Origin: Sulfurospirillum diekertiae
GTDB lineage: Bacteria; Campylobacterota; Campylobacteria; Campylobacterales; Sulfurospirillaceae
NCBI RefSeq assembly: GCF_002309535.1
Contig: NZ_CP023275.1
Span: forward strand, 1,054,001-1,118,000
DNA: 64,000 bases
Reading direction: 5' to 3'
Shown: in pieces, positions 4,204-38,368 of the stretch
How positions within the stretch are numbered: position 1 is the first letter of the stretch
Layout of the letters: the number at the start of each line of letters is the position of its first letter
Made by a program: the position numbers and the translations under genes
The notes under the pieces: model-generated
What the model was told of the DNA's origin: nothing
The model's input: only the letters and a program-made list of their open reading frames with translations
Database searches by the model: none

Positions 4204-4561
4204 ATCCTCGTGGTTCTAAAATGTGTTCTAAGCCTTGGTTAAAAATGGTTTTGATGTGTTCGTCATCAAGCGAATAAAAGACGACTTTTCCTTCTTTACG
4301 GTGCTTGACAAGACGTGCTTGACGAAGGACGCGTAGCTGGTGAGAGATAGCAGACTGCGTCATATGTAAAAGTTCTGCAATGTCGCAAACACACATCTCT
4401 GCTTCAAATAGCGCTGAGATGATCTTCACGCGCGTCGTATCGCCAAAGACTTTAAAGAGCTCGGCAAGGTCGTAAAGCTTCTCCTCTTGAGGCATCTTTT
4501 TTCTAACCATTTCGATGACGTTTTCATGCACAATGTCGCAACTGCAAAATTCATCGCTCAT
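4184..4561 (-). CDS. ArsR/SmtB-family metal-responsive repressor (CadC/SmtB-like)
   Basis: Winged-helix repressor of 125 residues. Two metal-site signatures are present. The alpha-3 type has N-terminal Cys6 and Cys8 together with Cys57, Cys59 and Asp60 (Met-Cys-Val-Cys-Asp). The alpha-5 type fits DxHx10HxxE exactly: Asp100, His102, His113, Glu116. The recognition helix is around Thr-Gln-Ser-Ala-Ile-Ser-His-Gln-Leu. It is first in a two-gene operon with the P-type ATPase and is expected to release DNA on binding Zn, Cd or Pb. A likely operator is the palindrome at 4591-4604 just upstream. Confidence 0.92.
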   Translation of the reverse strand: MSDEFCSCDIVHENVIEMVRKKMPQEEKLYDLAELFKVFGDTTRVKIISALFEAEMCVCDIAELLHMTQSAISHQLRVLRQARLVKHRKEGKVVFYSLDDEHIKTIFNQGLEHILEPRGFEYALQ

Positions 4562-4590
4562 CGGTTCCTCCTCTTGAAATTATGTACAAA

Positions 4591-4604
4591 TGTTCATATG
4601 AACA
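4591..4604. promoter_or_regulatory. Probable ArsR/SmtB operator
   Basis: TGTTCATATGAACA is a perfect 14-bp palindrome 30 bp upstream of the repressor start. Its TGTTCA/TGAACA half-sites resemble known SmtB/ZiaR-type operators, so autoregulation of the repressor-ATPase operon is likely. Confidence 0.75.
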
Positions 4605-4669
4605 ATTACTCATATATTAAAACAATTCAAATGAGAGAAAGCTTAAAATGATAGACAAACTCAAAAAGT

Positions 4670-4681
4670 TTTACATGTAAA
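4670..4681. repeat. 12-bp palindrome TTTACATGTAAA
   Basis: Perfect copy in the spacer between the end of the PIN-like gene (minus) and the metal-repressor promoter region. Confidence 0.95.
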
Positions 4682-4734
4682 GATAAAAAGAGGAAAAAGG
4701 TCAAAAGATTTGCCCCTTTTCCCTTTTTTAGGAT

Positions 4735-5790
4735 TTAGGAAAGCAATTCTAGTTCATATTTTTGGATTAATTCTTTCCTGTATTCAGGGGTCCATTTTTC
4801 TGATTGATAGATTCGCTCAGAATCAGGAATTGTTATATCCCATATTTTTATAAGATTTTCGTAATCTGCTTTATGAAGAGTTTCTTTGAAAGGTGTGTAA
4901 TCTCCAAGAATTTGTATTTGCGTTGCAATGTTTAACAATTTTTTAAATGCTTTGTCATCTGTTGCATATATAAATTCTTTTGTTTTTTGTTTTGGTATCC
5001 AATTACGTATAAATGAATTCATAATATATAAATCCCATGTCATATTGAAAATTTGCTGCTTTTTTTGTTCAGGTAAGTTGGTAGCTTTGTACTTCATCAT
5101 TTTTTTTAACGGAGTTTTACTAAAAAAAATAATGGCATAAACAAAGCAAACTAAAGATTGTCTAAAATCCTTGAGCATCCAATATTTAAATTTTTTCAAT
5201 TTTTCGTATGAACTTATTTTTTCTTGGTTAATCGCTATACAAACAAGTACAATCAAGTATATAGAATCCCATTCTGTAAGCCTATTGTATTTAATAAGAT
5301 TATTTTTTAAGACTTCTTTATCGATATTTGGATGTTCTGCTAAAGGATACTCATTTGAGTTACCAATGGCATATGCCATTAGTGCATCATTTTTTGTATT
5401 ATCTATTCTATAAAAAAGCATTAAATCATCGACGACTTCATTTGCATTGTCTTTAATGTAATTTATTTTTTCATATGCAGCAAGGCTAGGTTCTATCTCA
5501 ATATCACATAATTGGCAAAAGACAAGTAAGGCGACAGCATCGCGTGTTTCTTTTGTAGGAGATTTTTTATGGCTATTGAGTAAATATTGATAGATATTGG
5601 TATCTAAATAAAGTATGTATTGAATTCTATTAATACGATTATTGTATAAAATATCTGGAATACTTTCAAGCGTATAAATAGCATTATGGTCTTCTACATT
5701 AAAAGCATGGATAATCCAATCTCGATTTAAAAGTTTTTCAAGGATTTGAATAGTAGTTTTTGGAAGAGTAACATAAAGTTCATGATTCAT
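4735..5790 (-). CDS. AT-rich orphan with a PIN-nuclease-like core and a large helical insert
   Basis: 351 residues; I do not recognise the protein as a whole. Several segments fit the acidic positions of a PIN-domain ribonuclease: Leu-Asp-Thr-Asn-Ile-Tyr with Asp63, Glu100/Glu107 in the following helix region, Thr-Trp-Asp-Leu-Tyr-Ile-Met-Asn (Asp254), and Ala-Thr-Asp-Asp-Lys-Ala-Phe (Asp278/279) as the last acidic strand. About 145 residues, mostly helical in character, separate the second and third acidic blocks, which is unusual for VapC-size PIN proteins. No antitoxin gene is visible beside it. Base composition is clearly more AT-rich than its neighbours, suggesting transfer. Function is an inference from motif spacing only. 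Confidence 0.7.
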   Translation of the reverse strand: MNHELYVTLPKTTIQILEKLLNRDWIIHAFNVEDHNAIYTLESIPDILYNNRINRIQYILYLDTNIYQYLLNSHKKSPTKETRDAVALLVFCQLCDIEIEPSLAAYEKINYIKDNANEVVDDLMLFYRIDNTKNDALMAYAIGNSNEYPLAEHPNIDKEVLKNNLIKYNRLTEWDSIYLIVLVCIAINQEKISSYEKLKKFKYWMLKDFRQSLVCFVYAIIFFSKTPLKKMMKYKATNLPEQKKQQIFNMTWDLYIMNSFIRNWIPKQKTKEFIYATDDKAFKKLLNIATQIQILGDYTPFKETLHKADYENLIKIWDITIPDSERIYQSEKWTPEYRKELIQKYELELLS

Positions 5791-5874: not shown

Positions 5875-5990
5875 GATTCATGCGACAAATTTACATAGGT
5901 ATCTTTTCTCTTCCTCTACGACTGTAGCGCTCTTTTTGTGTAAAAATGTTGAGAGCAATTTTGTGTGTATACCCTCAAATATATTAGGAT

Positions 5991-6464
5991 TTACAGATAG
6001 TATCTTCCGATGCACTCATTTATATTTATTCGAATAACAGCAGTACCATTCACCATGTTTTCAGGTAGTTCTTTATCCATCAAATGCGGTGTAAATTTTT
6101 TCACAATTTTCGACAGTGCTTCTTTCTTTTCGTCCAAATTATCTACAATTTTTGCCTCTCCTTGTGCGATAATACTGTTAAACGCTGTATTGACATCACA
6201 AGGGTTCTCGACATTCTTATCCAATAATGTGATCATCTCATCTATCTCAAAACAGACGTATGGATTGGATGTGAGAATGTCTATTTTTTGACCTTTGGGT
6301 AATCCATGCAGATAGATTTTGTGTTCACTATAGACAAAGTGCATGGGGATAACGTAAGGGTAACCATCGTGCCTGACGCATCCTAGCCTGCCAACGTTTG
6401 CTCTTTCAAATAATGCTCTGATCTGCTCAAATGATAATAGATGTGTTTTGGTTCTATGTCTCAT
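5991..6464 (-). CDS. Pyridoxamine 5'-phosphate oxidase-like (NimA-type) flavin split-barrel protein
   Basis: 157 residues matching the small split-barrel family that includes NimA nitroimidazole reductases. The N-terminal block [17 protein letters not shown] is the family signature, followed by a Tyr-Leu-His-Gly segment and the Val-Cys-Phe-Glu-Ile-Asp strand that lines the FMN or heme pocket. Probably a cytoplasmic FMN-binding reductase of unknown substrate. It is divergent from glyA across a 148-bp spacer. Start codon has a plausible Shine-Dalgarno (AAAGGAG) upstream. Confidence 0.8.
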
Positions 6465-6510
6465 ACGCTCTCCTTTTTTGCATCATTGTAATGGAATCAT
6501 CACAATACAA

Positions 6511-18980: not shown

Positions 18981-19592
18981 ATGTTTGCCTCTTTCTTTGC
19001 CAAACGAAATGCCAAAAAACTCAAGGATGAGCAGTATCGTTTTTTATTTGATGAAGCGCCCGTTGATGAGGTGGTAGTGTTTGACACCGAAACGACAGGG
19101 CTTAGTCCTAAAAAAGATGAGATTCTCTCTATTGGCGCGGTGAAAATCAAGGGCAATAAAATCTTGATGTCCGAAAAGTTTGAGCTCTTCATCAAACCCA
19201 GTCGTGAGATCAATGAAAAAAGTATTAAGATTCACCAAATTCGCAATGTCGATTTAGAACATGGCATCGCTCCACACGAGGCAATCGTGCAGTTTTTGCA
19301 CTTCATTGGTTCACGCCCACTGGTCGGCTATTACCTTGAGTTTGACATCAAGATGATGAACACTTATGTTAAACCGTGGCTTGGCATCAACCTTCCAAAT
19401 CCGCAAATCGAAGTCTCAGGACTCTACCACGATAAAAAGATCAAATTCATCCCCGATGGCGTCATCGACCTGCGCTTTGATGTGATGATGAACGATCTTG
19501 GATTGCCTATTTTTGGAAAGCATGACGCACTGAACGATGCGGTAATGACGGCGATGATGTATATTAAACTGCAAAATATTGGGAAGATTTAG
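18981..19592 (+). CDS. DEDDh 3'-5' exonuclease, DnaQ/PolC-epsilon-like
   Basis: 203 residues. Exonuclease motifs: Asp-Thr-Glu-Thr-Thr-Gly (motif I), Gly-Tyr-Tyr-Leu-Glu-Phe-Asp (motif II), and His-Asp-Ala-Leu-Asn-Asp-Ala (motif III, DEDDh type). It is shorter than a full polymerase III epsilon subunit and lacks the C-terminal polymerase-binding tail, so it is better read as the exonuclease partner of the preceding CBS/DUF294 protein than as the replicative proofreader. Confidence 0.85.
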   Translation: MFASFFAKRNAKKLKDEQYRFLFDEAPVDEVVVFDTETTGLSPKKDEILSIGAVKIKGNKILMSEKFELFIKPSREINEKSIKIHQIRNVDLEHGIAPHEAIVQFLHFIGSRPLVGYYLEFDIKMMNTYVKPWLGINLPNPQIEVSGLYHDKKIKFIPDGVIDLRFDVMMNDLGLPIFGKHDALNDAVMTAMMYIKLQNIGKI

Positions 19593-19605
19593 GTGGCTTT
19601 TTTGC

Positions 19606-19617
19606 TTTACATGTAAA
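19606..19617. repeat. 12-bp palindrome TTTACATGTAAA upstream of mntA
   Basis: Perfect copy that covers the expected -35 position of the mntA-hepT promoter. Confidence 0.95.
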
Positions 19618-19631
19618 GGTTAGAATTATGT

Positions 19632-19637
19632 TATAAT
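19632..19637 (+). promoter_or_regulatory. Extended -10 promoter of the mntA-hepT operon
   Basis: TGTTATAAT, an extended -10 element, 27 bp before the mntA start, with an AAAGGA Shine-Dalgarno in between. Confidence 0.6.
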
Positions 19638-19663
19638 TTTTCAAATTCACGAAAGGATAAACG

Positions 19664-19942
19664 ATGGGTTATTTAGAAGTATTAAGCACCTTGGCACAAC
19701 TCAAAACCAAATACAACATCCCAGAACTTTACCTTTTCGGCTCTTTTGCTAAGCACCAAGATAATGAGAACAGCGACGTTGACATCGCTGTCAAACTCGA
19801 AAAAGCAGATGCATTTTTACTTGTACGCATCATGCAAGAAGCGCAAGAAAAACTTCACAGAAACGTGGATATCGTGCAACTGCGAGAGCGCATGAATCCT
19901 CTACTAAAAAAAGTTATTCTTGAAGAGGGCGTACGTGTCTGA
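19664..19942 (+). CDS. mntA: MntA-like nucleotidyltransferase antitoxin
   Basis: 92-residue minimal nucleotidyltransferase. It has the GSx10DxD motif (Gly26-Ser27 ... Asp38-x-Asp40) of MntA antitoxins, which transfer AMP to a tyrosine of the HepT toxin and so silence it. Cytoplasmic. The gene overlaps hepT by 8 bp, the typical order antitoxin-toxin. A promoter and palindrome lie just upstream. Confidence 0.87.
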   Translation: MGYLEVLSTLAQLKTKYNIPELYLFGSFAKHQDNENSDVDIAVKLEKADAFLLVRIMQEAQEKLHRNVDIVQLRERMNPLLKKVILEEGVRV

Positions 19943-20303
19943 GCAAGAACTTGTGCAAAGCATTCTCGAACAGATGATTCTCTCGTGCGAAAGAGTTGAA
20001 AAACGTTTTTCCACTATCCAAACGATTAATGATTTTTTAGACACCGAAGAAGGCATCGAAAAGCTTGATGCCATTTGTATGCAACTCATTGCTTTAGGCG
20101 AAAGTGTCAAAAACCTCGATAAGATCACACACAAAACGTTACTTCTCCGCTACCCACAAATCGTTTGGAGCGAAGTAGCTGGCATGCGCGACATCATCAG
20201 CCATCACTATTTTGATCTCAACGCTGAGATCGTTTTTGAGGTGTGTCAAAATCACATTAAACCGCTTAAAAATACACTGCAAATGATTCAAAAGGAATTT
20301 TGA
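19935..20303 (+). CDS. hepT: HepT-like HEPN ribonuclease toxin
   Basis: 122 residues from GTG at 19935, which overlaps the antitoxin stop. All-helical HEPN fold (DUF86/HepT). The catalytic Rx4HxY motif is intact: Arg85, His90, Tyr92 (Arg-Asp-Ile-Ile-Ser-His-His-Tyr). The tyrosine is the residue AMPylated by MntA in characterised pairs. Expected to cleave RNA, often tRNA, when freed, giving growth arrest or phage abortive infection. The next gene begins on the base after its stop codon. Confidence 0.86.
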   Translation: MSEQELVQSILEQMILSCERVEKRFSTIQTINDFLDTEEGIEKLDAICMQLIALGESVKNLDKITHKTLLLRYPQIVWSEVAGMRDIISHHYFDLNAEIVFEVCQNHIKPLKNTLQMIQKEF

Positions 20304-20942
20304 ATGGAAAGTACATCATTAAGTTGTGGAATTATTATGCCTATTTCGGCAATGGATGGATACCTAGCAAAACACTGGGAAGAAATTCAAGCAATTTATA
20401 TTGATGTTGCACAAAAATGTGGTCTTAGTAATGCAAAGCTTGTCAGCGAAGAGAAATCATCAGGTGTGATTCATACCAATATCATTAAAAATTTATTTGA
20501 AAATGATATTGTCATCTGTGATGTAAGTGGTAAAAATCCTAATGTTATGTTTGAACTTGGTCTGCGTATTGCCTTTGATAAACCTGTTATTGTTACAAAG
20601 GACGATGAAACAAAAATTAGTTTTGATATAGCACCTTTAAAATACCTTGAATACCCTAAAACACAACATCATGGTGGAATAGAAAAATTTAAAATAGATC
20701 TTACTGAGTGCTTACAAGCGACATTAGAAAAAAGCCCTTCCTATCTTCAAAGTTTTGGTATCAATTACAGCCGTGTTGATAATAGTGAAGCTTTTTTACA
20801 GAAATTGAGCAGTATTGAAAAGGATGTTCGTTTAACAAAAATCTTGACACTTCAGAATCAATCTAACCTTTCAAATCTAAATGATTTAATTCCTTTTGAC
20901 CCAGTTGCGAGACTCAATAGAAAATTAGGAATAAAATCCTAA
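20304..20942 (+). CDS. Nucleoside deoxyribosyltransferase-like / TIR-like Rossmann protein linked to mntA-hepT
   Basis: 212 residues. The first 115 or so resemble the nucleoside 2-deoxyribosyltransferase-like fold: a Gly-Ile-Ile-Met-Pro-Ile-Ser opening strand, Asn-Asp-Ile-Val-Ile-Cys-Asp (Asp73), then Asn78-Pro-Asn80-Val-Met-Phe-Glu84-Leu-Gly, and Lys-Pro-Val-Ile-Val. Glu84 corresponds to the usual catalytic glutamate of this fold, which in relatives cleaves N-glycosidic bonds of nucleosides or NAD. The C-terminal 90 residues are unrecognised and helical. The gene is AT-rich and begins directly after the hepT stop (TGAATG), preceded by AAGGAA, so it is the third gene of the toxin-antitoxin operon. 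Activity is inference. Confidence 0.75.
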   Translation: MESTSLSCGIIMPISAMDGYLAKHWEEIQAIYIDVAQKCGLSNAKLVSEEKSSGVIHTNIIKNLFENDIVICDVSGKNPNVMFELGLRIAFDKPVIVTKDDETKISFDIAPLKYLEYPKTQHHGGIEKFKIDLTECLQATLEKSPSYLQSFGINYSRVDNSEAFLQKLSSIEKDVRLTKILTLQNQSNLSNLNDLIPFDPVARLNRKLGIKS

Positions 20943-20973
20943 TTTATATTTTAAATAATAAAAGGCCAGTGTT

Positions 20974-21096
20974 AAACTTTTAACTTTTTAGTACATAATA
21001 CTTTGCTTTCTTCATCATTTGCCTGTTTTATATGTTCTGAGTCTTTACATGTAAAGCTATTTATGAGTCTCACCTATTCACAAAAGTTAAAAGTTT
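20974..21096. repeat. 123-bp unit bounded by a 15-bp perfect inverted repeat
   Basis: Arms at 20974-20988 and 21082-21096 enclose 93 bp that includes a palindrome copy. Size and form are compatible with a small MITE-like element or the relic of an insertion at the end of the toxin-antitoxin operon. No target-site duplication is evident. Confidence 0.5.
21044..21055. repeat. 12-bp palindrome TTTACATGTAAA
   Basis: Perfect copy inside the inverted-repeat unit between the toxin-antitoxin operon and acr3. Confidence 0.95.
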
Positions 21097-21330
21097 GGCT
21101 CTCCAATCCTGAGTTGCTCTCTATGAAATCCTTGCAAAAATGCTTTATCTACGCACTCATTTCTTTCACATGAGAACGAAGTAAATAAATTTTGGTTATG
21201 CTATTTTCATGTTGCGATCTTGATGTAAAATAGAGTAATGAGATATTTGAAATAAAGTAATTTTGCAATAAGTATACTGATTTTATAGGGTTACATTAAC
21301 CTATTTTTGGGTCAATTACAAGCAACTTAA

Positions 21331-21346
21331 ATCAATATATATTGAT
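21331..21346. promoter_or_regulatory. Probable ArsR operator of acr3
   Basis: ATCAATATATATTGAT, a perfect 16-bp palindrome of the ATCAA-N6-TTGAT form known for ArsR repressors of arsenic operons, 17 bp before the acr3 start. No arsR gene is adjacent, so the repressor would be encoded elsewhere. Confidence 0.7.
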
Positions 21347-21363
21347 ATATAAAGGATGTTTCC

Positions 21364-22419
21364 ATGCAAAATAAATCGACAAAACCCGCTTCAGGTATGG
21401 GCTTTTTTGAGCGTTACCTTACGGTATGGGTGGCTTTGTGTATTATTGCGGGTGTGGCCATCGGTCAGTTTTTTCCTATCATTCCTCAGACGCTCAGTCG
21501 TTTTGAATATGCACATGTCTCCATTCCTATTGCCATTCTCATTTGGCTGATGATCTACCCAATGATGCTCAAAATTGACTTTGCGAGTATTTTGGACGCG
21601 GGTAAAAAACCTAAAGGCTTGTGTATTACATGCACGGTAAATTGGTTGATTAAACCTTTTACGATGTATCTTATCGCAGCTTTCTTTTTTAAAGTGCTCT
21701 TTGTAAACTTTTTACCTGAAAATCTTGCCAATGAATACTTGGCGGGTGCTATTTTACTCGGAGCGGCACCTTGTACGGCGATGGTGTTTGTATGGAGCCA
21801 TCTGACCAAAGGCGATCCTGCGTACACGTTGATTCAAGTGGCGGTAAATGACCTGATTTTGCTGATTGCGTTTACGCCTATTGTGGCTTTTTTACTAGGC
21901 GTTAGTAATGTCTTTGTGCCGTATGACACGTTGTTTTTATCGGTTGTTTTATTTGTAGTCATCCCCTTGTTAAGCGGTTATCTTTCACGTCGTTATATCA
22001 TCAAGCACAAAGGTCTTGGTTACTTTGAAAATGTGTTTATTAAAAAATTTAACAACACCACCATTCTTGGGCTTTTGCTCACACTCATCATTATTTTTAC
22101 GTTTCAAGGCGACATTATTCTCAACAATCCTTTACATGTAATTCTTATTGCTATTCCCCTCACCCTTCAAACCTTTTTTATTTTTTACATTTCCTATGGT
22201 TGGGCACGCGTCTGGAAGCTTCCTCATAACATTGCTGCACCTGCTGGAATGATTGGGGCGAGTAACTTTTTTGAACTTTCCGTAGCTGTAGCGATCACAC
22301 TTTTTGGTTTGCAATCAGGTGCAACGCTGGCAACAGTCGTAGGCGTACTTGTGGAAGTTCCTGTCATGTTGGCGCTCGTGCGCATTGCGAACAACACAAA
22401 GCATTGGTTTGAAAAGTAG
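21364..22419 (+). CDS. acr3: Acr3-family arsenite efflux permease
   Basis: 351 residues with ten hydrophobic helices, the usual Acr3 length. The conserved Gly-Ala-Ala-Pro-Cys-Thr-Ala-Met-Val-Phe-Val-Trp-Ser motif in the fourth to fifth helix region carries the cysteine needed for arsenite transport; Ala-Pro-Ala-Gly-Met-Ile-Gly-Ala-Ser-Asn-Phe-Phe-Glu-Leu near the C terminus is also diagnostic. It expels As(III) from the cytoplasm using the proton gradient. A palindrome variant (22131-22142) is read as Leu-His-Val-Ile. No arsC or arsR is adjacent; control is likely through the 21331 operator. Confidence 0.92.
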   Translation: MQNKSTKPASGMGFFERYLTVWVALCIIAGVAIGQFFPIIPQTLSRFEYAHVSIPIAILIWLMIYPMMLKIDFASILDAGKKPKGLCITCTVNWLIKPFTMYLIAAFFFKVLFVNFLPENLANEYLAGAILLGAAPCTAMVFVWSHLTKGDPAYTLIQVAVNDLILLIAFTPIVAFLLGVSNVFVPYDTLFLSVVLFVVIPLLSGYLSRRYIIKHKGLGYFENVFIKKFNNTTILGLLLTLIIIFTFQGDIILNNPLHVILIAIPLTLQTFFIFYISYGWARVWKLPHNIAAPAGMIGASNFFELSVAVAITLFGLQSGATLATVVGVLVEVPVMLALVRIANNTKHWFEK

Positions 22420-22439
22420 CAAGTAGAGAGACACAGGGT

Positions 22440-22469
22440 AACCACGAGAGGAAAATTCCCCTCGTGGTT
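22440..22469. terminator. Bidirectional terminator between acr3 and metE
   Basis: AACCACGAG / CTCGTGGTT with further inner pairing (GG/CC) around AAAATT, followed by ATTTTT on the plus strand. It serves both convergent genes. Confidence 0.85.
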
Positions 22470-22473
22470 ATTT

Positions 22474-27302: not shown

Positions 27303-27851
27303 ATGCGCCTTGATTCAAAACAGACGGCTATGCTGCTGGTGGATGTTCAAGAACGTCTTTTTGTCCATATTCACAATCACGAACAGATTGAAAAGCATCT
27401 TCTTGTCCTTCTACAAGGGCTTAAAACCTTAGAAATTCCCATTTTATGCAATCAACAATACACGAAAGGTCTTGGTCAAACCATCTCTTCGGTGCACTCC
27501 CTTCTGGGTAAAATGACGATTTATGAAAAGTGTACGTTTAGTTGTTATCAAAACAGTGAAGTTACAGAGGCATTGGAAGCTTTACATGTAAAGTGTATGA
27601 TCGTGGCAGGCGTTGAGAGTCATGTGTGTGTTTTGCAAAGCGTGTGTGATCTTTTAGATGCAGGGTTTGAAGTGATCGTATGTGCGGATGCTATGGGCTC
27701 ACGAAAAGAGTATGACCACAACATTGCACTGCGTCGTATGGAACAAGAAGGGGCAAGCCTTGCTACTACGGAGTCCCTTCTTTTTGAGTTATTGCAAAGT
27801 GCCCATCATCCGCAGTTTAAAGAGATTAGTGCCCTTGTAAAAACATTGTAA
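27303..27851 (+). CDS. Isochorismatase-family cysteine hydrolase
   Basis: 182 residues. Catalytic triad positions of the family: Asp in Leu-Leu-Val-Asp-Val-Gln-Glu-Arg, Lys in Tyr-Glu-Lys-Cys-Thr-Phe-Ser-Cys, and the nucleophilic Cys in Gly-Val-Glu-Ser-His-Val-Cys-Val-Leu-Gln. Similar to the YcaC-like group, substrate unknown, possibly an amide. A perfect palindrome copy (27581) is read as Leu-His-Val-Lys just before the active-site strand. Confidence 0.87.
   Translation: MRLDSKQTAMLLVDVQERLFVHIHNHEQIEKHLLVLLQGLKTLEIPILCNQQYTKGLGQTISSVHSLLGKMTIYEKCTFSCYQNSEVTEALEALHVKCMIVAGVESHVCVLQSVCDLLDAGFEVIVCADAMGSRKEYDHNIALRRMEQEGASLATTESLLFELLQSAHHPQFKEISALVKTL
27581..27592. repeat. 12-bp palindrome TTTACATGTAAA inside a coding region
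   Basis: Perfect copy read as Leu-His-Val-Lys in the isochorismatase-like gene. Confidence 0.95.
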
Positions 27852-37081: not shown

Positions 37082-38368
37082 ATGCACTATGATAAAAGCA
37101 TTAAAGCATATGAAAAAGCTCAAAATGTCATTCCTGGTGGTGTAGATTCTCCTGTACGCGCGTTTAAAAGCGTAGGAGGAACACCTCTGTTTATCAAAAA
37201 AGGCGAGGGTGCGTATCTTTTTGATGTCGATCACAATCGTTATGTCGATTACGTCCAAAGTTGGGGACCCCTTATCTTTGGGCATGCTAATAAAACCATC
37301 GAAAAAGCGGTCATTAAAGCGGTTAAAAAAGGGCTCAGTTTTGGAGCACCTACGAAAGCAGAAACAAAACTTGCAAGCCTCATCTGCTCGCTCTTTCCTG
37401 AGATTGATAAAGTTCGTTTTGTCAGTAGTGGAACAGAGGCGGTTATGAGTGCGATTAGACTCGCGCGAGGCTTTACATGTAAAGATGATATTATCAAATT
37501 TGAGGGTTGCTACCATGGGCACAGTGACTCCCTTTTAGTACAAGCAGGCAGTGGCGCTGTGACCTTTGGAACGCCTAGTTCTCCAGGTGTTCCCGCCGAT
37601 CTTACGAAACATACGCTTTTAGCCAAATACAATGATATTAAAAGTGTCAAAGAGTGTTTTAAAAACTCTAAAAACATTGCCTGTATTATTATCGAACCAC
37701 TGGCCGGCAATATGGGTTTTGTTCCTGCTGATGCAAAATTTTTGGAAGAGTTAAGAGTTTTATGTGATAAACATGGAACACTGCTTATTTTTGATGAGGT
37801 CATGAGCGGTTTTAGAGCAAGCCTCAAAGGGGCACAAGGAATTTATTCAACCGTACCCGATTTGGTAACGTTTGGAAAAGTCATTGGTGGCGGTATGCCC
37901 GTGGGTGCCTTTGGTGGACGTGCTGAAATCATGGATAAACTCTCTCCTGATGGTCCAGTCTACCAAGCAGGAACACTGAGTGGAAATCCTGTGGCGATGG
38001 CAGCAGGACTCGCTTCATTAGAGCAAATTATGGATGATGAAGCGTTGTATATTAGACTTGAAAAAAAGGCTAAGAGACTGGTGGAGGGACTTAAAGAAGC
38101 TGCTCAGGTATCGGGTATTTCGCTTCAAGTTTCAGCCATTGGTTCCATGTTTGGCTTTTTCTTTAATGACAAACCCGTGAAAAATTTTGAGGATGCTCTT
38201 AAAAGTAATACTACATGTTTTGCTGCCTTTCATCAAGGTATGCTACGTGAGGGTTTTTACTTTGCGTGCTCTCAGTTTGAAACAGGTTTTATCTCTGATG
38301 CTATAAGTGATGAGATGATTGAAGAGACCATTGAGGCAGCGATTAAAGTATTTGAAGAGATTGCATGA
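37082..38368 (+). CDS. hemL: Glutamate-1-semialdehyde 2,1-aminomutase
   Basis: 428 residues from ATG at 37082, chosen because GAGGA is about 8 bp upstream; ATGs at 37076 and 37067 are in frame. PLP enzyme making 5-aminolevulinate for heme and tetrapyrroles. Signatures: [11 protein letters not shown], Ser-Ser-Gly-Thr-Glu-Ala, and PLP-lysine in Thr-Phe-Gly-Lys-Val-Ile-Gly-Gly-Gly. A perfect palindrome (37472) is read as Phe-Thr-Cys-Lys. First of a tightly overlapping set with the AtpZ-like gene. Confidence 0.94.
37472..37483. repeat. 12-bp palindrome TTTACATGTAAA inside hemL
   Basis: Perfect copy in the second permitted frame, read as Phe-Thr-Cys-Lys. Confidence 0.95.

Follow-up and report, generated by a model that had tools for sequence, protein, structure and literature searches.

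The locus described here places a gene of another kind on the very base that follows a toxin-antitoxin pair of the MntA-HepT type, which raises the question of whether the three genes form one layered defence system against phages, or whether the third gene is a passenger of a pair that does not need it. The window, by which we mean the whole 64,000-nucleotide stretch of DNA that was analysed, comes from a Sulfurospirillum-group genome of 2.81 Mb in a single contig. Its three open reading frames lie on the forward strand where the initial annotation had placed them, i.e. mntA, predicted to encode a minimal nucleotidyltransferase antitoxin (AMPylator), at 19664..19942, hepT, predicted to encode a HEPN ribonuclease toxin, at 19935..20303, and the third gene, coding for 212 amino acids, at 20304..20942. 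The neighbors of this cassette are a DnaQ-like 3'-5' exonuclease gene upstream (18981-19592) and an ACR3 arsenite transporter gene downstream (21364-22419), the latter followed on the opposite strand by metE, a name assigned from its sequence. The presumed cassette promoter is a TATAAT -10 box at 19632..19637 on the forward strand, with no match to a -35 element; the box is found 5' of mntA in the window, UBA1314, S. cavolei, S9C671 and G002. A promoter scan gave matches no better than the shuffle level, and terminator-like matches within coding sequence were set aside. From the arrangement of the genes we infer that mntA, hepT and the third gene share one transcript.

The first two genes appear to be a genuine MntA-HepT pair, as the initial annotation had proposed, with motifs and family profiles in agreement. 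The motifs that define the adenylylating HEPN/MNT pair (PMC7641770) are both complete, GSx10DxD in MntA as GSFAKHQDNENSDVD and Rx4HxY in HepT as RDIISHHY. MntA matched the Pfam Polbeta profile (4.8e-16) and passed the NCBIfam MntA cut-off (62.9 against 60 bits), and HepT passed the Pfam HepT-like profile PF01934 (1.7e-18, 66.9 against a cut-off of 23.5 bits). HepT missed the cut-off of the NCBIfam HepT equivalog (31.9 against 60 bits), which is a narrow naming model and not a defining motif. The start of hepT is most likely the GTG at 19935, because an AGAGGG ribosome-binding site lies upstream of it, and with this start the two genes overlap by 8 nt.

The third gene begins with the ATG at 20304, directly after the hepT TGA (20301-20303), and its ribosome-binding site, AAAAGGAA, lies on the forward strand within the 3' end of hepT (20290..20297). 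Both the stop/start junction and this site are kept in other carriers, as TAA|ATG in UBA1314 and as TGA|ATG in S. cavolei and S9C671. The gene is AT-rich, its GC content falling from about 0.42 to about 0.30 along its length. Sequence profiles detect the protein weakly (Pfam NDT 2e-4, PADLOC 'TIR effector' 1.2e-8, PHROG 3634 3.7e-19); it missed the gathering threshold of the Pfam NDT profile PF05014 (21.9 against 28.8 bits), and a PDB sequence search with the profile of its family gave no match, single-sequence and fold searches being the useful ones. The AlphaFold2 model (pLDDT 82.8) bears out the nucleoside deoxyribosyltransferase (NDT)-like core and helical tail that had been read from the letters, as the top 50 PDB matches in Foldseek were all NDT or DNPH1 entries (E from about 1e-5 to 1e-4), and the tail is predicted as helices at residues 160-195 and 200-208. 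Asp73, Asn78-Pro79-Asn80 and Glu84, which the same reading had singled out, are invariant in an alignment of 44 homologues, together with S75, the remainder of K77-N78-P79-N80-V81-M82-F83-E84-L85-G86, H24-W25, F107-D108 and Y117. Glu84, in FELG, aligns with the nucleophile Glu in YELG of DNPH1; the DNPH1 catalytic Asp, 24 residues before this Glu and mutated to Ala in the DNPH1 entries aligned, corresponds here to Ile60, and Ile is nearly invariant at this position throughout the family. On the strength of the model, its fold and a single catalytic residue argue for assigning the protein to the N-glycosidases of the TIR-DrHyd-SLOG class (PMC9503650), and suggest that it may act as an NADase or base-cleaving enzyme. 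An altered or lost activity is also possible, since the Pfam NDT cut-off was missed and the position of the DNPH1 Asp is occupied by Ile60.

Among 60 related genomes, 36 have HepT relatives and seven have the third gene, one of these being a distant match with 34% identity. The third gene adjoins hepT solely within a HepT subclade of at least 76% identity, in which six of the seven members carry it, whereas the many other HepT loci of the 60 genomes all lack it. The carriers are the window and G060 (same species), UBA1314 (G006), S. cavolei (G021), the LaCa MAG (G018) and S9C671 (G003). Four genomes, belonging to three species, have the triplet intact; in the two MAGs, LaCa and S9C671, frameshifts interrupt hepT and/or the third gene (the third gene in S9C671) and may be assembly errors. 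Pairwise dS between carriers is similar in mntA, hepT and the third gene (0.39/0.73/0.42, 0.94/1.07/0.93 and 0.57/0.60/0.72, respectively), and the three genes have therefore probably been together since the carrier species split. Purifying selection acts on the third gene (dN/dS 0.15-0.29), with values of 0.13-0.18 for its core within the clade, where all of the active-site-type residues are kept, and of 0.28-0.55 for its tail, which is of variable length. In mntA-hepT dN/dS is 0.05-0.10, so that the value for the third gene is two to four times that of its partners. One relative, G002, harbors mntA-hepT at the same site but no remnant of the third gene, which is thus dispensable to the pair. 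Loss in G002 seems more likely than separate gains elsewhere, because a FastTree tree with outgroups puts the carriers LaCa and S. cavolei outside the group that contains G002 (supports 0.94 and 0.975), although support within the clade is low and the exact placement of G002 uncertain.

Outside of this clade the picture is a different one. Across 397 good-quality Campylobacterota genomes, the third-gene family was detected solely in Sulfurospirillum (three genomes, E<=1e-15). Four of the best 80 genome loci of the family lie beside mntA-hepT, all of them in this clade, and two more belong to UBA6810; the other 74, from outside the genus and its family, as well as 80 viral loci, have no recognisable mntA-hepT beside the homologue, as judged with HMMs built from close HepT and MntA relatives, which could miss divergent HEPN genes. 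The locus L100, from a Bacteroidetes MAG, is an example of the latter, with MNT-MNT-HEPN genes at 4550-5560 and, 390 bp downstream of them, a short homologue of 182 aa (5950-6498). The two kinds of genes may have come together here a second time, independently, although we treated the nearness as probably due to chance, given the long gap and a HEPN gene that looks to be of another class. UBA6810, named Sulfurospirillum sp. and counted here as another genus of the same family, has the short form of the third gene without mntA-hepT; at this locus (L034:1036-2268) the homologue is followed by a MazE/MazF-like pair, with MazF named by Pfam, and the whole lies between ispE and smpB. The initial annotation had held that a third gene sitting apart from mntA-hepT in relatives, and without pattern, would speak against a joint system. 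The triplet recurs, and is co-inherited, within one Sulfurospirillum clade; outside the clade this refuting pattern largely holds, as no recognisable mntA-hepT was seen beside the 74 genomic and 80 viral homologues from beyond the genus and its family, which, along with the G002 pair that lacks the third gene, argue against a general three-part system.

The interval between the exonuclease gene and metE (19593-22473 in the window; loci L134-L151) is a recurrent integration hot spot across Sulfurospirillum, with cargo that differs per species. In G014 and G005 there is almost nothing in it; it contains acr3 in G015, mntA-hepT in G002, an inverted triplet in G003, ribbon-helix-helix/MazF-type toxin-antitoxin genes in G004, G008 and G021 (MazF-type names assigned by reading the sequences), and, as further cargo, an ATPase-like gene. 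In S. cavolei and UBA1314 the triplet sits at another site, from which it follows that the three genes move as a unit. The window cassette lies exactly between two copies of the palindrome CTTTACATGTAAAG; comparison with the empty site of the relative G015, in which the flanks meet at one copy (CTTTATATGTAAAG), sets the left boundary at 19605..19618 and the right boundary at 21043..21056, where homology to the empty site restarts (AAAGCTATT...). The window contains the palindrome TTTACATGTAAA 21 times in exact form, with 15 of these copies in the 16% of sequence outside long open reading frames; copies are seen also at 27580-27593 and 37471-37484. Its core is found 774 times in the genome as compared to 0 for a reversed control, with counts of 14-792 per genome across the genus; other genera of the order have few or no copies of the 14-base form. 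With copies this frequent, a role of the palindrome in cassette movement is no more than possible, and our literature search returned no paper that ties it to Sulfurospirillum.

The orphan homologues, i.e. those that live apart from mntA-hepT, are about 290 aa long (viral median 299.5 aa), and the Sulfurospirillum forms, at 193-213 aa, are about 80 residues shorter. In a model of an Aeromonas orphan, of lower overall confidence (pLDDT 72), the NDT core is followed by a long helix and a beta-alpha C-terminal domain (residues ~213-275, well predicted) that looks ferredoxin-like by the order of its elements; the Sulfurospirillum short forms keep core and helix and lack this domain, a point against an effector role of the third protein. 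A ferredoxin-like domain after the long helix is predicted also for L060, L049, L066, L072 and others, and the tails of further orphans differ, which would suit an NDT core that combines with interchangeable domains. In IMG/VR, homologues are present in at least 98 viral contigs, most commonly next to integrase, DNA polymerase and repressor genes, and next to replication genes too. In phages or prophages of Escherichia the homologue sits between DNA polymerase and helicase genes, in those of Klebsiella in the replication-nin region, in an S. aureus phage as a lone reversed gene, and in a Pantoea plasmid-prophage between repressor and integrase. Many phage accessory ('moron') genes act against other phages. 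The placement of the orphans is typical of such genes, and they may likewise act against other phages. The orphans have no recurrent neighbor, each neighbor family counting one to five members, mostly regulators, DNA polymerases and integrases, along with a handful of single genes for defence or toxin-antitoxin functions (AbiTii, KAP ATPase, macro domain). HepT was not found in viral contigs with a single-sequence query that reaches close relatives. A 253-aa 'TIR-like' gene near a phage homologue was considered and set aside, because its sequence is not significantly similar to that of the third protein.

Taken together, the trio is real, and the third gene is probably a captured passenger and not part of a universal three-part defence system. 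The reading that we prefer, and to which we give about even credence, is that of a type VII toxin-antitoxin cassette that once captured a phage-associated N-glycosidase-like effector. The capture would have happened once, at the base of the Sulfurospirillum clade, with the donor a large family of N-glycosidase-type effectors that otherwise live alone, often in prophages. By analogy to published work on MntA-HepT, MntA would hold HepT silent through AMPylation, while the third protein, made from the same transcript with its start coupled to the hepT stop, would most likely use Glu84 to cleave an N-glycosidic bond of NAD or of a nucleotide, and would serve as an accessory anti-phage or toxic effector, parallel to HepT and not needed by the pair. 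A true tripartite system, in which AMPylation by MntA or binding by HepT controls the third protein, and RNase and glycosidase fire sequentially on infection, would account for a junction that is exact and conserved and has its ribosome-binding site within hepT, for the similar synonymous divergence of the three genes, and for the confinement of the third gene to one HepT subclade; moreover, the absence of the usual C-terminal domain from the short form might point to control in trans. However, G002 keeps the pair without the third gene, UBA6810 keeps a short form beside a MazF gene without the pair, no fixed pairing was seen among the homologues outside the genus, and the third gene evolves under a dN/dS well above that of its partners, and we regard this system as quite unlikely. 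A layered defence is a possible outcome, yet it is improbable in our judgement that MntA or HepT directly controls an NAD- or nucleotide-cleaving effector, with RNA cleavage and NAD loss as successive anti-phage layers.

The third protein could instead be a DNPH1/NDT-type nucleotide hydrolase without harmful effect, involved in pool cleaning or salvage and carried as phage-derived cargo, as might be suspected from its best structural matches and from phage homologues that often lie beside DNA polymerase, helicase and primase genes. The replaced DNPH1 Asp, the patchy and mobile distribution, the linkage to a toxin-antitoxin pair, and lone moron-like slots such as the repressor/integrase gap of the Pantoea plasmid-prophage all speak against such a housekeeping role, which we consider unlikely. 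That the gene is decaying, C-terminally truncated and free-riding on the toxin-antitoxin cassette, would fit with the ~80 residues missing relative to the orphans, the weakly constrained and length-variable tail, the frameshifted copy of S9C671 and the absent copy of G002, but is improbable in light of purifying selection on the core, retention of the active-site-type residues, and intact copies in four genomes of three species. If the captured effector and the pair do interact, they would link toxins of the RNase type with effectors that deplete NAD; if they do not, the locus would be an example of effector capture by mobile toxin-antitoxin cassettes. Either way, the locus is one in which a predicted NAD/nucleotide N-glycosidase has been added to a type VII toxin-antitoxin operon, an arrangement open to direct test, and the family with the KNPNVMFELG core, ~290 aa long, widespread, unnamed, phage-associated and to all appearances uncharacterised, would be the more rewarding subject.

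In comparison with known systems, the pair resembles the type VII MntA-HepT system of Shewanella oneidensis (SO_3165/SO_3166; PMC7641770) in its adjacent genes and in both motifs, GSx10DxD and Rx4HxY, and differs in the third gene on the base after the hepT stop and in a HepT that falls below the NCBIfam equivalog cut-off. The third protein shares its fold with NDTs and with the N-hydrolases DNPH1/Rcl, including the nucleophile Glu of the latter, whereas their second catalytic Asp (D80 in human, D69 in rat) is replaced by Ile60, and the third protein has a long helical tail as well as an N-P-N motif. Its core matches the PADLOC profile for CBASS effectors of the TIR/CAP12 type ('Effector TIR', PF10137) in 44 of 44 homologues, but PF10137 itself is reached in five of the 44, and no cyclase gene is among the flanking genes. 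A likeness is shared also with the Rossmann-like N-glycosidases of the TIR-DrHyd-SLOG class, which is used by many immune systems (PMC9503650), the DrHyd branch being assigned purely by resemblance. The NDT-like effectors of the retrons Eco1, Eco9 and Sen2 (PMC8989520, PMC12887533) are alike in that an NDT-fold effector is joined to a second system that possibly restrains it, and Eco1 is reported to hydrolyse NAD, according to a title that PMC12887533 cites. Unlike these retrons, the locus has no adjacent reverse transcriptase, its flanks being mntA-hepT, the exonuclease gene and acr3, and in place of the C-terminal DNA-binding domain of the retron effectors the third protein has its helical tail. 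By analogy, the NDT-like effector of retron Eco1 would be the closest functional parallel to the third protein (PMC8989520, PMC12887533).
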